A stretch of DNA of 64,000 bases from Vicinamibacterales bacterium (lineage in GTDB: Bacteria; Acidobacteriota; Vicinamibacteria; Vicinamibacterales; SCN-69-37). Both the position numbers and the translations under genes were made by a program. This document shows, in pieces, positions 1 to 3,763 of the stretch (the first letter of the stretch is position 1; each line of letters begins with the position of its first letter). The notes under the pieces are model-generated. The model ran no database searches. It saw only the letters and a program-made list of their open reading frames with translations, and was not told the DNA's origin. The stretch spans positions 90,569 through 154,568 of the forward strand of contig JAURFE010000001.1 in assembly GCA_030827135.1 (NCBI GenBank). The letters run 5' to 3'.

Positions 1-562
1 TCTCCAGGAAGTTCCGCAGCATCTGGTGGCCATCGGGCGTGAGCACCGACTCCGGATGAAACTGCACGCCATGAACCGGCCACCGCTCATGCCGAATCCC
101 CATCACCGTCTGATCGTCGCCCACCCAGGCCGACACGTCGAATCCCGTCGGCACACTGGTCCGGGGAATCACCAGCGAGTGATACCGCCCGACCTCAATG
201 CCTTGTGCGACACCCTGAAACATCCCGCGGCCGTCATGCGCGATGGTCGAGACCTTGCCGTGCATGGGCGCACCCGCGCGCTCGACGCGGCCTCCGAACG
301 CGATCGCCAGCGCCTGGTGGCCGAGGCACACGCCGAGAATCGGCATGACGCCCGCAAATCGCTGCAACGCGGCCACGGAAATGCCGGCGGTCTCAGGCCG
401 GCCCGGTCCCGGCGAGATCATGAGATGTGTCGGTCGGCGCGCCGCAATCTCGTCGACGCTGATCGCGTCGTTGCGAACCACCTGCACCTCGGCACCCAGT
501 TCGCCCAACCGATGGGCGAGGTTATACGTGAACGAATCGTAGTTATCGAGCAGCAACACCAT
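1..562 (-). CDS. trpG: Anthranilate synthase component II (glutamine amidotransferase), partial at window edge
   Basis: Glutamine amidotransferase that releases ammonia from glutamine for TrpE, which turns chorismate into anthranilate in the cytosol. The frame opens with MVLLLDNYDSFTYN, typical of this family. It carries the nucleophile block GVCLGHQ and, close to the window edge, VQFHPES with the catalytic His. About 187 codons are visible and the stop lies left of base 1, so only a short tail is missing. The ATG sits 3 bases after the trpE stop, so the two are probably translationally coupled. PabA (aminobenzoate synthesis) is a close relative and one protein often serves both roles, but the trp leader upstream favours TrpG. 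Further trp genes may continue outside the window. Confidence 0.93.
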   Translation of the reverse strand, partial: MVLLLDNYDSFTYNLAHRLGELGAEVQVVRNDAISVDEIAARRPTHLMISPGPGRPETAGISVAALQRFAGVMPILGVCLGHQALAIAFGGRVERAGAPMHGKVSTIAHDGRGMFQGVAQGIEVGRYHSLVIPRTSVPTGFDVSAWVGDDQTVMGIRHERWPVHGVQFHPESVLTPDGHQMLRNFLE

Positions 563-565
563 GCG

Positions 566-2044
566 TCAGATCCCGGCTTCCGCCATCTGTAGCGCTTGGA
601 GCAACGCCCCGGCCTTGTCCTTGGTCTCTTCGTATTCCGCGGTCGGGTGCGAGTCGGCCACGATGCCTGCACCGGCCTGGACGCGTGCAGCCGTGCCGTC
701 CATGGTGATGGTCCGTATCGCAATACAAAAGTCGAGGTTCCCCGCGAAGTCCAGGTACCCGACGGCCCCGCCGTAGAGTCCGCGCCGGGTGGGTTCCAGG
801 TCATTCAGCAACTGCATCGCGCGAATCTTCGGCGCGCCGGTGACCGTGCCGGCCGGGAACGTCGCGGCCAGCGCGTCCAGCCGATCGCAGTCGTCGGCCA
901 GCTGGCCTTCCACGCGTGACACCAGATGCATCACATGCGAGAACTTCTCAAGGGCCATGTACTGCGGCACCCGCACACTGCCCACGGCACACACCCGCCC
1001 CAGATCGTTGCGGCCGAGATCGACGAGCATCACGTGCTCAGCCCGCTCCTTCTCGCTGCGGCGCAGTTCGTCGGCCAGACGCTGATCTTCCTCGGGCGAT
1101 CCGCCCCGGCGACGGGTGCCGGCGATGGGATGCGTCTCCACGCGTGAACCTTCGACACGGACGAGCATCTCGGGAGAGGCGCCGATGATGGCCTTGCCGC
1201 CGTGCCGGATGAAGAACATGTACGGCGACGGGTTGATGTGACGCAGGGCCCGGTACACGTCGAAGGGTGACGCACCGGTCTCGGTGTCGAACCGCTGCGA
1301 CAACACGGTCTGATACACATCGCCGGCGGCGATGTGCTCCTGGATCTTCCGCACGGAGGCCTCGAAGACCTCCTGCGTCTGGTTGGACTGAATCGTCAGT
1401 GTGGTACCCGACCGGCGCTCGGGTCTCGACAGATTCCGGTCCAGTTCCCGTTCCAGGAACTCAATCTTCGCGACGGCGAAGTCATACAACGACCGGAGGT
1501 CTTCTCCCGGGCGAACGCGTGCATTCGAGATCGCCAGGATGCGATGTTTCACGTGGTCAAACGCCAGCACCGTGTCGAACACCATGAAGCCGGCACGTGC
1601 GCGCGCGGGATCATCGCCGGGGCTCTCCGGCCGCGCCACCGACGGCTCAAACCACTCCGCCGTGTCGTAATCGCAGTACCCGACGGCCCCACCGGTGAAC
1701 CGCGGCAGGTCGGCGACAAAAGGCGCCGAGAACTCGGTCATGAGCGACCGCAGAACATCCACAAACGGCTCGCTCCGGCCCGTCGTCGTGCCCGCCTGCT
1801 CAATCAGGGTCTCGTGCGCGCGCCCCCGGATGATGAGAAACGGATCCTTGCCGAGAAACGAATACCGCCCGACGTGTTCGCCGCCCTCGACGCTCTCAAG
1901 CAGGAATGCGTAGTCGGAATGTTCCGCAATCTTCAGGAAGGCTGAAACCGGCGTCAGCAGGTCCGCCATGATTTCGCGCCACACCGGAACGAAGGTGCCG
2001 CGTCGCGCCAGTTCCACAAACTCGTCGAACGTCGTCTGTCTCAT
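566..2044 (-). CDS. trpE: Anthranilate synthase component I
   Basis: Converts chorismate plus ammonia to anthranilate, the first committed step of tryptophan synthesis. The 492-residue length is normal. The N-terminal part has the LLES motif (residues 48-51) that in known TrpE proteins forms the tryptophan feedback site. The C-terminal chorismate-binding half shows PIAGTRRRG, LVDLGRNDLG and GTVTGAPK. LLES favours TrpE over PabB. The ATG overlaps the aroDE stop as ATGA, so translation is coupled. Control is probably double: feedback at the enzyme and attenuation in the leader upstream. Confidence 0.95.
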   Translation of the reverse strand: MRQTTFDEFVELARRGTFVPVWREIMADLLTPVSAFLKIAEHSDYAFLLESVEGGEHVGRYSFLGKDPFLIIRGRAHETLIEQAGTTTGRSEPFVDVLRSLMTEFSAPFVADLPRFTGGAVGYCDYDTAEWFEPSVARPESPGDDPARARAGFMVFDTVLAFDHVKHRILAISNARVRPGEDLRSLYDFAVAKIEFLERELDRNLSRPERRSGTTLTIQSNQTQEVFEASVRKIQEHIAAGDVYQTVLSQRFDTETGASPFDVYRALRHINPSPYMFFIRHGGKAIIGASPEMLVRVEGSRVETHPIAGTRRRGGSPEEDQRLADELRRSEKERAEHVMLVDLGRNDLGRVCAVGSVRVPQYMALEKFSHVMHLVSRVEGQLADDCDRLDALAATFPAGTVTGAPKIRAMQLLNDLEPTRRGLYGGAVGYLDFAGNLDFCIAIRTITMDGTAARVQAGAGIVADSHPTAEYEETKDKAGALLQALQMAEAGI

Positions 2045-3510
2045 GATCCCGTCATCTCCCCAACAAACACCCGTGCGGCCTCGCGCATCACACGCGTGTC
2101 AGCCGGTCGTCCCATCCACCAGTCGAACTGCCGGGCCGCCTGGCCCACCAGCATGTCCAGGCCCCCGATGACCTGCGCCCCGGTGGCGCGCGCACGCTGC
2201 AACCACGCCGTCTCTTCCGGGTTGTAGACAAGGTCGTACGCCACCTGCGCCGTGAGGTCGTCCCACGCGCACGGCATGTCATTCACGGCGGGCCACGTGC
2301 CTGCCGGCGTCGCGTTCACCACCACATCCCACGATCCCGACGGCGGCCACGCCGTCGCACGGACGCCAAGCGCGGCAGCGACCGGGGCCGCCGCGTCCCG
2401 TCGACGCGCGCACAGGACGACGTTGGCGCCGCGCTGCAGCACCGCCCACGCCGAGGCCCGGCCGGCGCCGCCGGCGCCAAGCACCAGCACCGAGGCGCCG
2501 ACAAGCGCGACACCACGCGCATCAAGCGCGTCGAGGAAACCAGCGGTATCGAGATTTTTCGCTGTCCATCGCCCGGACGCACGACGCACGGTGTTCACGA
2601 CGCCAAGCCGGCGCGTCGCCTCATCGTCACAGGTCACATCTGCGCGGGTGTGCCAGGCCGTCTTGAGCGGCGCCGTGATGCTGAGGCCCTCGAACCCGAG
2701 CGCATCCGCCACCGCGACCGCGTCGTCCACCGTGGCGGCGAGGACAGGCACGTAGATGGCGTCGAGTCCCGCAGCGGCGTACGCCGCGTTGTGCATCGCG
2801 GGCGACGCGGAATGTGCAATCGGCGCTCCAGCCACGCCAAAGATGCGGGTGTGATCAGTCGTCGCGGGTACGCGATAGCGATCCCGCAGGTGCCTGACGG
2901 CGACCTGACCGGGAGCCGCATCGCCCCCATACGTCCAGCACGACCCGAACCGCTCCGGCAGCAGTCGCGTCAGCTGCCCGGCCTCTCCCATGGCAATACA
3001 GACGAGGTCGCCACCAGCACACGCCGCAGCGGCCATCCTCCGAAGCACGAGCACATCGGAGATGTGTGCGGCCGTCACGGACACCTTCACCACATCCGCG
3101 CCCAGGCGTCGCATCTCCCGCACGCGATCGCCGAGGTCCTCCGGGATCGAGATGAAGTCGTGGTCCGACACGATCAGCCTGGTTGTCGCATGGTCCACAT
3201 TCGGGACCCACCCTGCGCGGCGCTCGACGTCCACGTAGTCGGCACCGGCGTCGATCGCCTGCCCCAGAAGCCGACGACGGGTGGTTTCGTCGCCGGAGAA
3301 CCGGCCGCCTTCCCACTCTGGCCGGCACGTGACAATGACCGGGACCTGTCGTCGCCGCCCTCGCACGGCGGCGGCCACGTCGATATCTGCGACGCCATCG
3401 ATCCGCAACTCGACGAGATCGGCATCCGTAGCGGCATCACGCGCCGCACACAACTCCGCCATGGTGGTGGCGGTCACGGTCTCGACAATCCGGGTACGGG
3501 CCAAAGGCAT
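2041..3510 (-). CDS. aroDE: Bifunctional 3-dehydroquinate dehydratase (type I) / shikimate dehydrogenase fusion
   Basis: Two consecutive shikimate-pathway enzymes in one 489-residue chain. The first ~215 residues are a type I dehydroquinase: LIVSDHDFI carries the expected His and VVKVSVTA the Schiff-base Lys. The rest is shikimate dehydrogenase: SITAPLK keeps the catalytic Lys of the usual N-T-x-P-x-K motif, KNLDTAGF keeps the paired Asp, and VLGAGGAGRA is the NADP-binding loop. The frame is open from a TTG at 3543, but I prefer the ATG at 3510, which has AGGA 8 bases upstream; an ATG at 3534 is also possible. The gene follows the attenuator terminator directly and overlaps trpE. Fusion of these enzymes is known in plants, chlamydiae and some other bacteria. 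Confidence 0.93.
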   Translation of the reverse strand: MPLARTRIVETVTATTMAELCAARDAATDADLVELRIDGVADIDVAAAVRGRRRQVPVIVTCRPEWEGGRFSGDETTRRRLLGQAIDAGADYVDVERRAGWVPNVDHATTRLIVSDHDFISIPEDLGDRVREMRRLGADVVKVSVTAAHISDVLVLRRMAAAACAGGDLVCIAMGEAGQLTRLLPERFGSCWTYGGDAAPGQVAVRHLRDRYRVPATTDHTRIFGVAGAPIAHSASPAMHNAAYAAAGLDAIYVPVLAATVDDAVAVADALGFEGLSITAPLKTAWHTRADVTCDDEATRRLGVVNTVRRASGRWTAKNLDTAGFLDALDARGVALVGASVLVLGAGGAGRASAWAVLQRGANVVLCARRRDAAAPVAAALGVRATAWPPSGSWDVVVNATPAGTWPAVNDMPCAWDDLTAQVAYDLVYNPEETAWLQRARATGAQVIGGLDMLVGQAARQFDWWMGRPADTRVMREAARVFVGEMTGS

Positions 3511-3541: not shown

Positions 3542-3578
3542 AAAAAGGGCCTCTCCAGTCGGTCAACTGAAGAGGCCC
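3542..3578 (-). terminator. Intrinsic terminator of the trp leader (attenuator)
   Basis: Read on the minus strand, GGGCCTCT pairs with AGAGGCCC (8 bp). After one mismatch, CAGT pairs with ACTG around a 6-base loop, and the hairpin is followed at once by TTTTTGTTTT. It lies between the leader peptide stop (3601) and the aroDE start (3510), so it can only act on transcripts entering this operon. The 5' arm (3566-3575) can instead pair with 3618-3627 inside the leader peptide gene. Confidence 0.92.
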
Positions 3579-3648
3579 GAAATCCCGCGTCGTGGTGGTC
3601 TTACCCGCGCGCGTCGCCCTCCCCAGTGGACTGGCCACACCACCACCA
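3566..3648 (-). promoter_or_regulatory. trp attenuator: Trp codons, antiterminator and terminator arms
   Basis: The control elements are in the classical order. Three Trp codons (3640-3648) come first. A stretch ACTGGGGAGG (3618-3627) then follows a few codons downstream and can pair over 10 bases (two G-U pairs) with CCTCTTCAGT (3566-3575), the first arm of the terminator. A ribosome stalled at the Trp codons would leave 3618-3627 free to form this antiterminator. A ribosome reaching the stop at 3601 would crowd it and let the terminator form. ACCACCAC (3592-3599) just after the leader stop is also complementary to the Trp-codon run. Pairings were worked out by eye, without energy calculation. 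Confidence 0.85.
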
Positions 3649-3717
3649 ATACGCCGGGGCATACGACGCCACAGGCGCCGAGGCAACAGGCCGGGTGGGG
3701 TGCAGAGGTGAACGCAT
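3601..3717 (-). CDS. trpL: trp operon leader peptide with three consecutive Trp codons
   Basis: A 38-codon reading frame starting ATG at 3717 and ending TAA at 3601, between a good promoter and an intrinsic terminator. Residues 19-27 read YAPAYWWWC: Trp codons 24-26 are TGG TGG TGG, a run very unlikely by chance. The peptide is not expected to have a function of its own; its translation senses charged tRNA-Trp. An in-frame alternative is the GTG one codon upstream (3720). No strong ribosome-binding site is visible, and the mapped promoter would give a 5' leader of only about 10 bases. Confidence 0.88.
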   Translation of the reverse strand: MRSPLHPTRPVASAPVASYAPAYWWWCGQSTGEGDARG

Positions 3718-3733
3718 CACAAAACCGAGCGGG

Positions 3734-3763
3734 ATCGTACCAGACGGCCGGCGAAGGCGTCAA
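3734..3763 (-). promoter_or_regulatory. Sigma-70 type promoter of the trpL-aroDE-trpEG operon
   Basis: TTGACG (3758-3763) and TACGAT (3734-3739) are separated by 18 bases, with TGG directly before the -10 box (extended -10). Transcription would begin near 3727, about 10 bases before the trpL ATG. The ugd promoter at 52183-52212 has the same layout. Confidence 0.75.

Follow-up and report, generated by a model that had tools for sequence, protein, structure and literature searches.

A conserved candidate tryptophan attenuator precedes the aromatic amino acid operon of Vicinamibacterales

The window, that is, the whole 64-kb stretch of DNA that we analysed, carries at one end three genes of aromatic amino acid synthesis, aroDE, trpE and trpG, all encoded on the minus strand (Table 1). 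The AroDE protein combines the Pfam domains DHquinase_I, Shikimate_dh_N and SDH_C. These three genes had been taken for the operon in an initial, sequence-only reading of the region. They are indeed present, but the gene string does not end at trpG: past the window edge (L031) it runs on to trpD, trpC, trpFB and trpA and further to aroF and tyrA, where trpG to trpA and tyrA were named from their sequence and conserved order. In the genome of origin, the genes from aroDE to trpA overlap or are separated by near-zero gaps, and about 225 nt after trpA come aroF and tyrA, the former encoding a DAHP synthase of type I that includes a ferredoxin-like domain. The order aroDE-trpE-trpG-trpD-trpC-trpF-trpB-trpA is found in all 20 loci that could be read far enough, with aroF following the trp genes in 17 and tyrA in all 20. 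The controlled unit is probably aroDE-trpE-trpG-trpD-trpC-trpFB-trpA, then aroF and tyrA; the last two would share the transcript of the preceding genes, and the 225-nt gap could leave room for a promoter of their own ahead of aroF. DAHP synthase catalyses the first committed step of the common aromatic pathway. Since its gene lies in the same string, joined by tyrA, the earlier suggestion that tryptophan supply reaches common aromatic synthesis becomes more likely. A 663-amino-acid ORF overlapping the end of tyrA (L168:16083-18074; C11:82082-84073 in the same genome) may close the operon. Operons of the Vicinamibacterales aroDE-trp type also occur in public records whose titles name Bifidobacterium breve, Acidimicrobiia and Cyanobacteria (L097, L103, L115, L148); these are probably mislabelled metagenome bins.

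Table 1. Genes and predicted regulatory features at the aroDE end of the window
Feature	Position	Strand	Remarks
-35 box TTGACG	3758..3763	-	TTGACA/TTGACG kept upstream of most relatives' leaders
-10 box TACGAT	3734..3739	-	18-base spacer to the -35 box
Leader peptide ORF, 38-39 codons	3601..3720	-	Start GTG 3720 or ATG 3717; stop TAA 3603-3601; homologous leaders in relatives
Three consecutive TGG codons (WWW), putatively regulatory	3640..3648	-	Trp enriched in relatives' leader cores
Antiterminator strand ACTGGGGAGG	3618..3627	-	Lies within the final leader codons
Shared strand CCTCTTCAGT	3566..3575	-	Two alternative partners: antiterminator strand and terminator 3' arm
Intrinsic terminator hairpin	3547..3578	-	U run from 3546 onward; kept in relatives
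aroDE (type I 3-dehydroquinase and shikimate dehydrogenase)	2041..3510	-	Probable start ATG 3510; Pfam/NCBIfam
trpE (anthranilate synthase component I)	566..2044	-	TIGR00564 above cut-off
trpG	1..562	-	8 bases cut off at the window edge

Upstream of aroDE and on the same strand, a promoter, a leader ORF, an antiterminator strand and a terminator follow one another from position 3763 downward. All of them, including the WWW codons, the ten-base antiterminator and the T run, were described in the sequence-only reading, whose order and coordinates are correct. The promoter, TTGACG-N18-TACGAT, is the sole sigma-70-like site between 3400 and 3900 (mean of 0.1 in shuffles) and is kept among relatives, where 46 of 70 sequences score at least 9 of 12, as compared to 2.9% of shuffles. 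The leader peptide of the window reads MRSPLHPTRPVASAPVASYAPAYWWWCGQSTGEGDARG. Its start codon lies 13-16 nt past the -10 box, and in relatives whose promoter scores well the distance from this box to the first start codon in frame is commonly 6-17 nt. Transcription initiates about 7 nt downstream of the -10 box, so that many of these leaders appear to be leaderless or nearly so; the predicted 5' UTR of the leader in the window is about 10 nt or less.

We considered whether this arrangement could be a constitutive terminator, or the leftover end of an upstream unit, next to a Trp-rich ORF that arose by chance and regulates nothing. A GC-rich genome does produce Trp-rich ORF ends by chance: six ORFs in the 64-kb window, five besides the leader, end with at least three Trp in five codons. 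A terminator follows only the leader. A promoter is located just upstream of the leader, the long upstream ORF is divergent, and 15 families keep the constraints on codons, pairing and spacing. This explanation is extremely improbable.

This conservation became apparent when we searched for AroDE in 100 relatives and found it in 92. The element is present upstream of aroDE in 83 of the 85 readable loci, which represent 15 families of the order, with terminators from the same sequence family and leaders that mostly read WWW, WRWYW or similar. The exceptions are L063, which has none, and L075, where the terminator is degenerate; in L034, L045 and L049 the leader contains few Trp codons. Loss of the Trp codons and of the pairing in orthologous upstream regions would have counted against the attenuation first proposed; nearly all of these regions retain both, together with the terminator. 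Within 70 leaders, Trp fills 31% of a nine-codon core that begins with the first Trp, as compared to 0.1% in the twelve codons before this core and 1.2% after it. A covariance model built from 70 aligned elements matches 147 of 193 genomes of the class (E<=0.001), 143 of which belong to the order, out of about 162 order genomes. Two of the four matches outside the order come from family f19 and consist only of terminator-like palindromes, on both strands. In the genome of origin the model has one match (E 5e-17; next best 0.04) and reveals no second copy. Elsewhere in the phylum it detects few true relatives; of the weak matches, L246, L247, L251 and L252 are merely similar terminators and L248 and L250 are coding sequence. 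On this comparative evidence, the predicted Trp-leader element is far beyond chance.

The shared strand can enter two structures. With the antiterminator strand it forms ten pairs, two of them G-U; as part of the terminator (GGGCCTCTTCAGT-loop-ACTGGAGAGGCCC) it belongs to a hairpin of 14 pairs (-26.5 kcal/mol, z -4.9) that no shuffled sequence equals in stability. Folding of the leader RNA recovered both of the states that had been proposed from the sequence alone: in a truncated RNA that ends after the terminator 5' half, the antiterminator is the minimum-energy fold (-31.5 kcal/mol, z -2.5), and with the 3' half added the terminator prevails (the longer stretch folds at -44.6 kcal/mol). Plus-strand folds of 3542-3763 are irrelevant, because the operon lies on the minus strand. 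Across relatives, 97.1% of the terminator cells and 95.5% of the antiterminator cells are paired, each above all 500 shuffles and all slid controls.

The two structures are mutually exclusive, as indicated by three-way covariation between the terminator 5' arm, the terminator 3' arm and the antiterminator strand. Replacement of T by C at shared-strand position 4 is associated with loss of A from the terminator partner (Fisher test, P = 1.6e-4) and from the antiterminator partner (P = 1.4e-4): in sequences with C, the terminator partner is G in 12 out of 12 and the antiterminator partner is G in 11 out of 12. The AroDE tree demands at least nine independent changes at this position, and the covariation is therefore not one inherited event. 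Position 6 shows the same association, but there a single change in the shared strand suffices. In L066, L068 and L069, the leaders carry WWWW or WWW and a UGA stop lies inside the antiterminator strand itself.

We also folded the RNA of 68 loci in silico with the ribosome at defined positions, placing the front of a stalled ribosome 16 nt downstream of the point where the first Trp codon begins. A stall at this codon favours the antiterminator in 67 of the 68 loci. When the ribosome has moved on to the stop codon, the antiterminator forms in none, a result that is mostly geometric, since the strand then lies behind the assumed ribosome front and is covered. In ribosome-free folding, the antiterminator still forms in 32 of the 68 loci. 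A protector (anti-antiterminator) hairpin is only marginally favoured (0.606, versus 0.552 in a codon-shuffled control; P = 0.018).

A terminator of this kind might instead be governed by a Trp-binding protein such as TRAP, by a T-box or by a riboswitch, with an incidental leader peptide, and trp operons of other phyla are controlled in such ways (TRAP: PMC4027176). We searched for known regulators with the Rfam families and obtained no match above threshold. The Trp_leader model (RF00513), whose use had been suggested together with the original reading, matches neither the window nor its genome at the threshold of 41 bits, while the E. coli control does match. No T-box was matched by Rfam at the gathering threshold or at E<=10, and the best Rfam match, Ref55, is merely a similar terminator (26.9 bits, below the gathering score of 43). 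An incidental peptide is also at odds with the correct spacing of the UGG codons, with the synonymous variation of the Tyr and Phe codons and with the appearance of His together with Trp codons in leaders whose operon includes his genes (see below). We therefore regard control by another regulator as very unlikely.

The element is very probably a ribosome-mediated transcription attenuator that senses charged Trp-tRNA and perhaps, to a lesser extent, charged Tyr- and Phe-tRNA. When charged Trp-tRNA is short, the ribosome would stall at the UGG codons and leave the antiterminator strand free to pair with the shared strand. The terminator would then not form, and RNA polymerase would enter aroDE-trpEGDC(FB)A and probably go on to aroF-tyrA. 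When charged Trp-tRNA is plentiful, the ribosome would reach the stop codon, which lies 7-13 nt past the antiterminator strand in most relatives, and would cover this strand; the terminator would form and transcription would stop ahead of aroDE. We infer that the leader is transcribed and translated, that the response has this direction and extends to the end of the operon, and that Tyr and Phe sensing may be added to that of Trp. With such an attenuator ahead of almost the whole aromatic operon, a shortage of Trp-tRNA should turn on the common aromatic pathway together with the Trp branch.

Besides the Trp codons, whose conservation agrees with the control originally proposed, 58 of the 70 leaders contain Tyr or Phe in the nine-codon core. 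Both synonymous codons are used (TAT 35, TAC 22 for Tyr), which suggests that selection acts on the residue. The leader may hence be a broader aromatic sensor that reads Trp, Tyr and Phe together, a refinement compatible with the Trp attenuator. Leaders of family f14 (WFWFIYF, WWWFFYF) and the presence of aroF and tyrA in the operon fit such a sensor; yet Trp is enriched well above all other residues and alone is nearly constant, and the Tyr codons of the leader in the window lie before the WWW run. On balance we consider this extension a real possibility, if somewhat short of an even chance.

Ribosome-mediated attenuation is a classical mechanism that is already known; what is probably new is the RNA family, its host lineage and its wiring. 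The element resembles trpL of E. coli and other Proteobacteria in its tandem Trp codons and in the alternative antiterminator and terminator hairpins before trpE. It differs in that the leader ORF contains the antiterminator strand, the protector hairpin (segment 1:2) is only marginally supported, the start codon is near the promoter and the first gene is aroDE. It has those sequence features of a ribosome-mediated attenuator that can be tested but fails the Rfam Trp_leader model, and so constitutes an RNA family of its own among attenuators of this kind. Its closest precedents are the trp attenuators of actinobacteria (PMC1262725) and AroR-aroF of Corynebacterium glutamicum (PMC11802643). The attenuators of Corynebacterium and Streptomyces share with it double or triple UGG codons, a GC-rich terminator and three mutually complementary strands, although these are gGCC-rGCy-GGCC there and GCCTCTTCAG/CTGAAGAGGC here, and they precede trp genes rather than aroDE (PMC1262725). 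According to PMC11802643, which refers to Neshat 2014, AroR-aroF employs ribosome-mediated attenuation through Phe-Tyr-Phe codons, and thus likewise reaches DAHP synthase through aromatic codons; there it stands apart from the trp operon, whereas here a single attenuator led by Trp lies ahead of aroDE, the trp genes, aroF and tyrA. The ilvBNC attenuator of C. glutamicum encodes its leader peptide on a transcript that is itself leaderless, with the start 1 nt from +1, and is similar to the near-leaderless start predicted here, but it concerns branched-chain amino acids and is unrelated in sequence (PMC11857589). We found no earlier description of this RNA family in a literature search that largely missed subscription journals, and its novelty is for this reason probable rather than proven.

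A sister family of the same class, f16, has a different operon, with the order aroDE, hisZ, hisG, hisC, hisH, hisA, hisF, trpE, a trpGD fusion, trpC, trpF, trpB, trpA and aroF (operons read in L255-L258, L262 and L265). Upstream of aroDE (L195, L196, L197, L199, L201, L203, L205, L207, L208, L219 and L223), these genomes carry a terminator that closely resembles the one described above (GCCTCTTCAGGGA...CCTGAAGAGGC). Each of the 11 readable loci has a leader ORF with one or more Trp and two or more His codons, often joined by Phe and Tyr, as in RRWRATVHHHRYHA, RRWRPVFRHHRYHP and RRWRTVFHYHWHP; the leader of L205 was read by eye. A GC-rich hairpin occurs just past the leader stop. Equilibrium folding of the f16 leaders gave no switch, as strand D was sequestered or paired with a terminator arm almost regardless of the ribosome position. 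Families f17-f19 showed neither trp genes beside aroDE nor a leader of this type.

The hisL attenuator is likewise characterised by a cluster of His codons and several possible alternative hairpins before the terminator. The f16 leader differs from it in combining His with Trp and Phe or Tyr, and in preceding an aro-his-trp operon. As judged from the sequences, the codons of the predicted leaders follow the content of the operon, which lends independent support to sensing. The similarity of the terminators and their position point to a shared ancestry of the f16 and Vicinamibacterales elements. We lean towards one ancestral attenuator of the class that was re-coded as the operon changed, reading Trp (with Tyr and Phe) ahead of aroDE-trp-aroF-tyrA, and His and Trp together (RRWRPVFRHHRYHP) where at least six his genes lie between aroDE and trpE.

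The few true relatives that the covariance model detects elsewhere in the phylum include two further families. In family f85 (L244:3174-3290, plus strand; L245:3452-3562, minus strand), a candidate WWW leader and terminator precede not trpE but a trpB-like gene whose sequence resembles TrpB2, and in f42 (L249:4068-4187, minus strand) a putative WWRW leader and terminator lie before a trpE-like gene; these genes were identified from their sequence. Family f44 has longer Trp-containing leaders upstream of trpE (L291, L292, L296; for example MTGTVFLPFCMWCWRRRAKAAWVGWSPVP in L291), and the terminator behind them is a different one (GCCGTGAGCG...CACGGC). The Trp-rich leaders upstream of trpE in f45 (L298, L302; YWWFWRN in L298) come without a U-run terminator, and complementarity between GGCCAGCTTCC and GGAGGCT could hide the ribosome-binding site, as in translational attenuation. 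Simple-type Trp leaders are mostly absent from the trpE upstream regions of other classes.

For the Acidobacteriota, these results add a clear, order-wide and testable attenuator that Rfam misses, in an order, the Vicinamibacterales, that consists mostly of uncultured bacteria. The entry and middle steps of the shikimate pathway, the whole Trp branch and tyrA form one gene string behind a switch that would read Trp. The Trp leader and the His and Trp leader of the sister family constitute a natural experiment in how leader codons track operon content. If the proposed re-coding is true, f16 carries a composite attenuator in which two unrelated amino acid pathways are coupled through one RNA switch.
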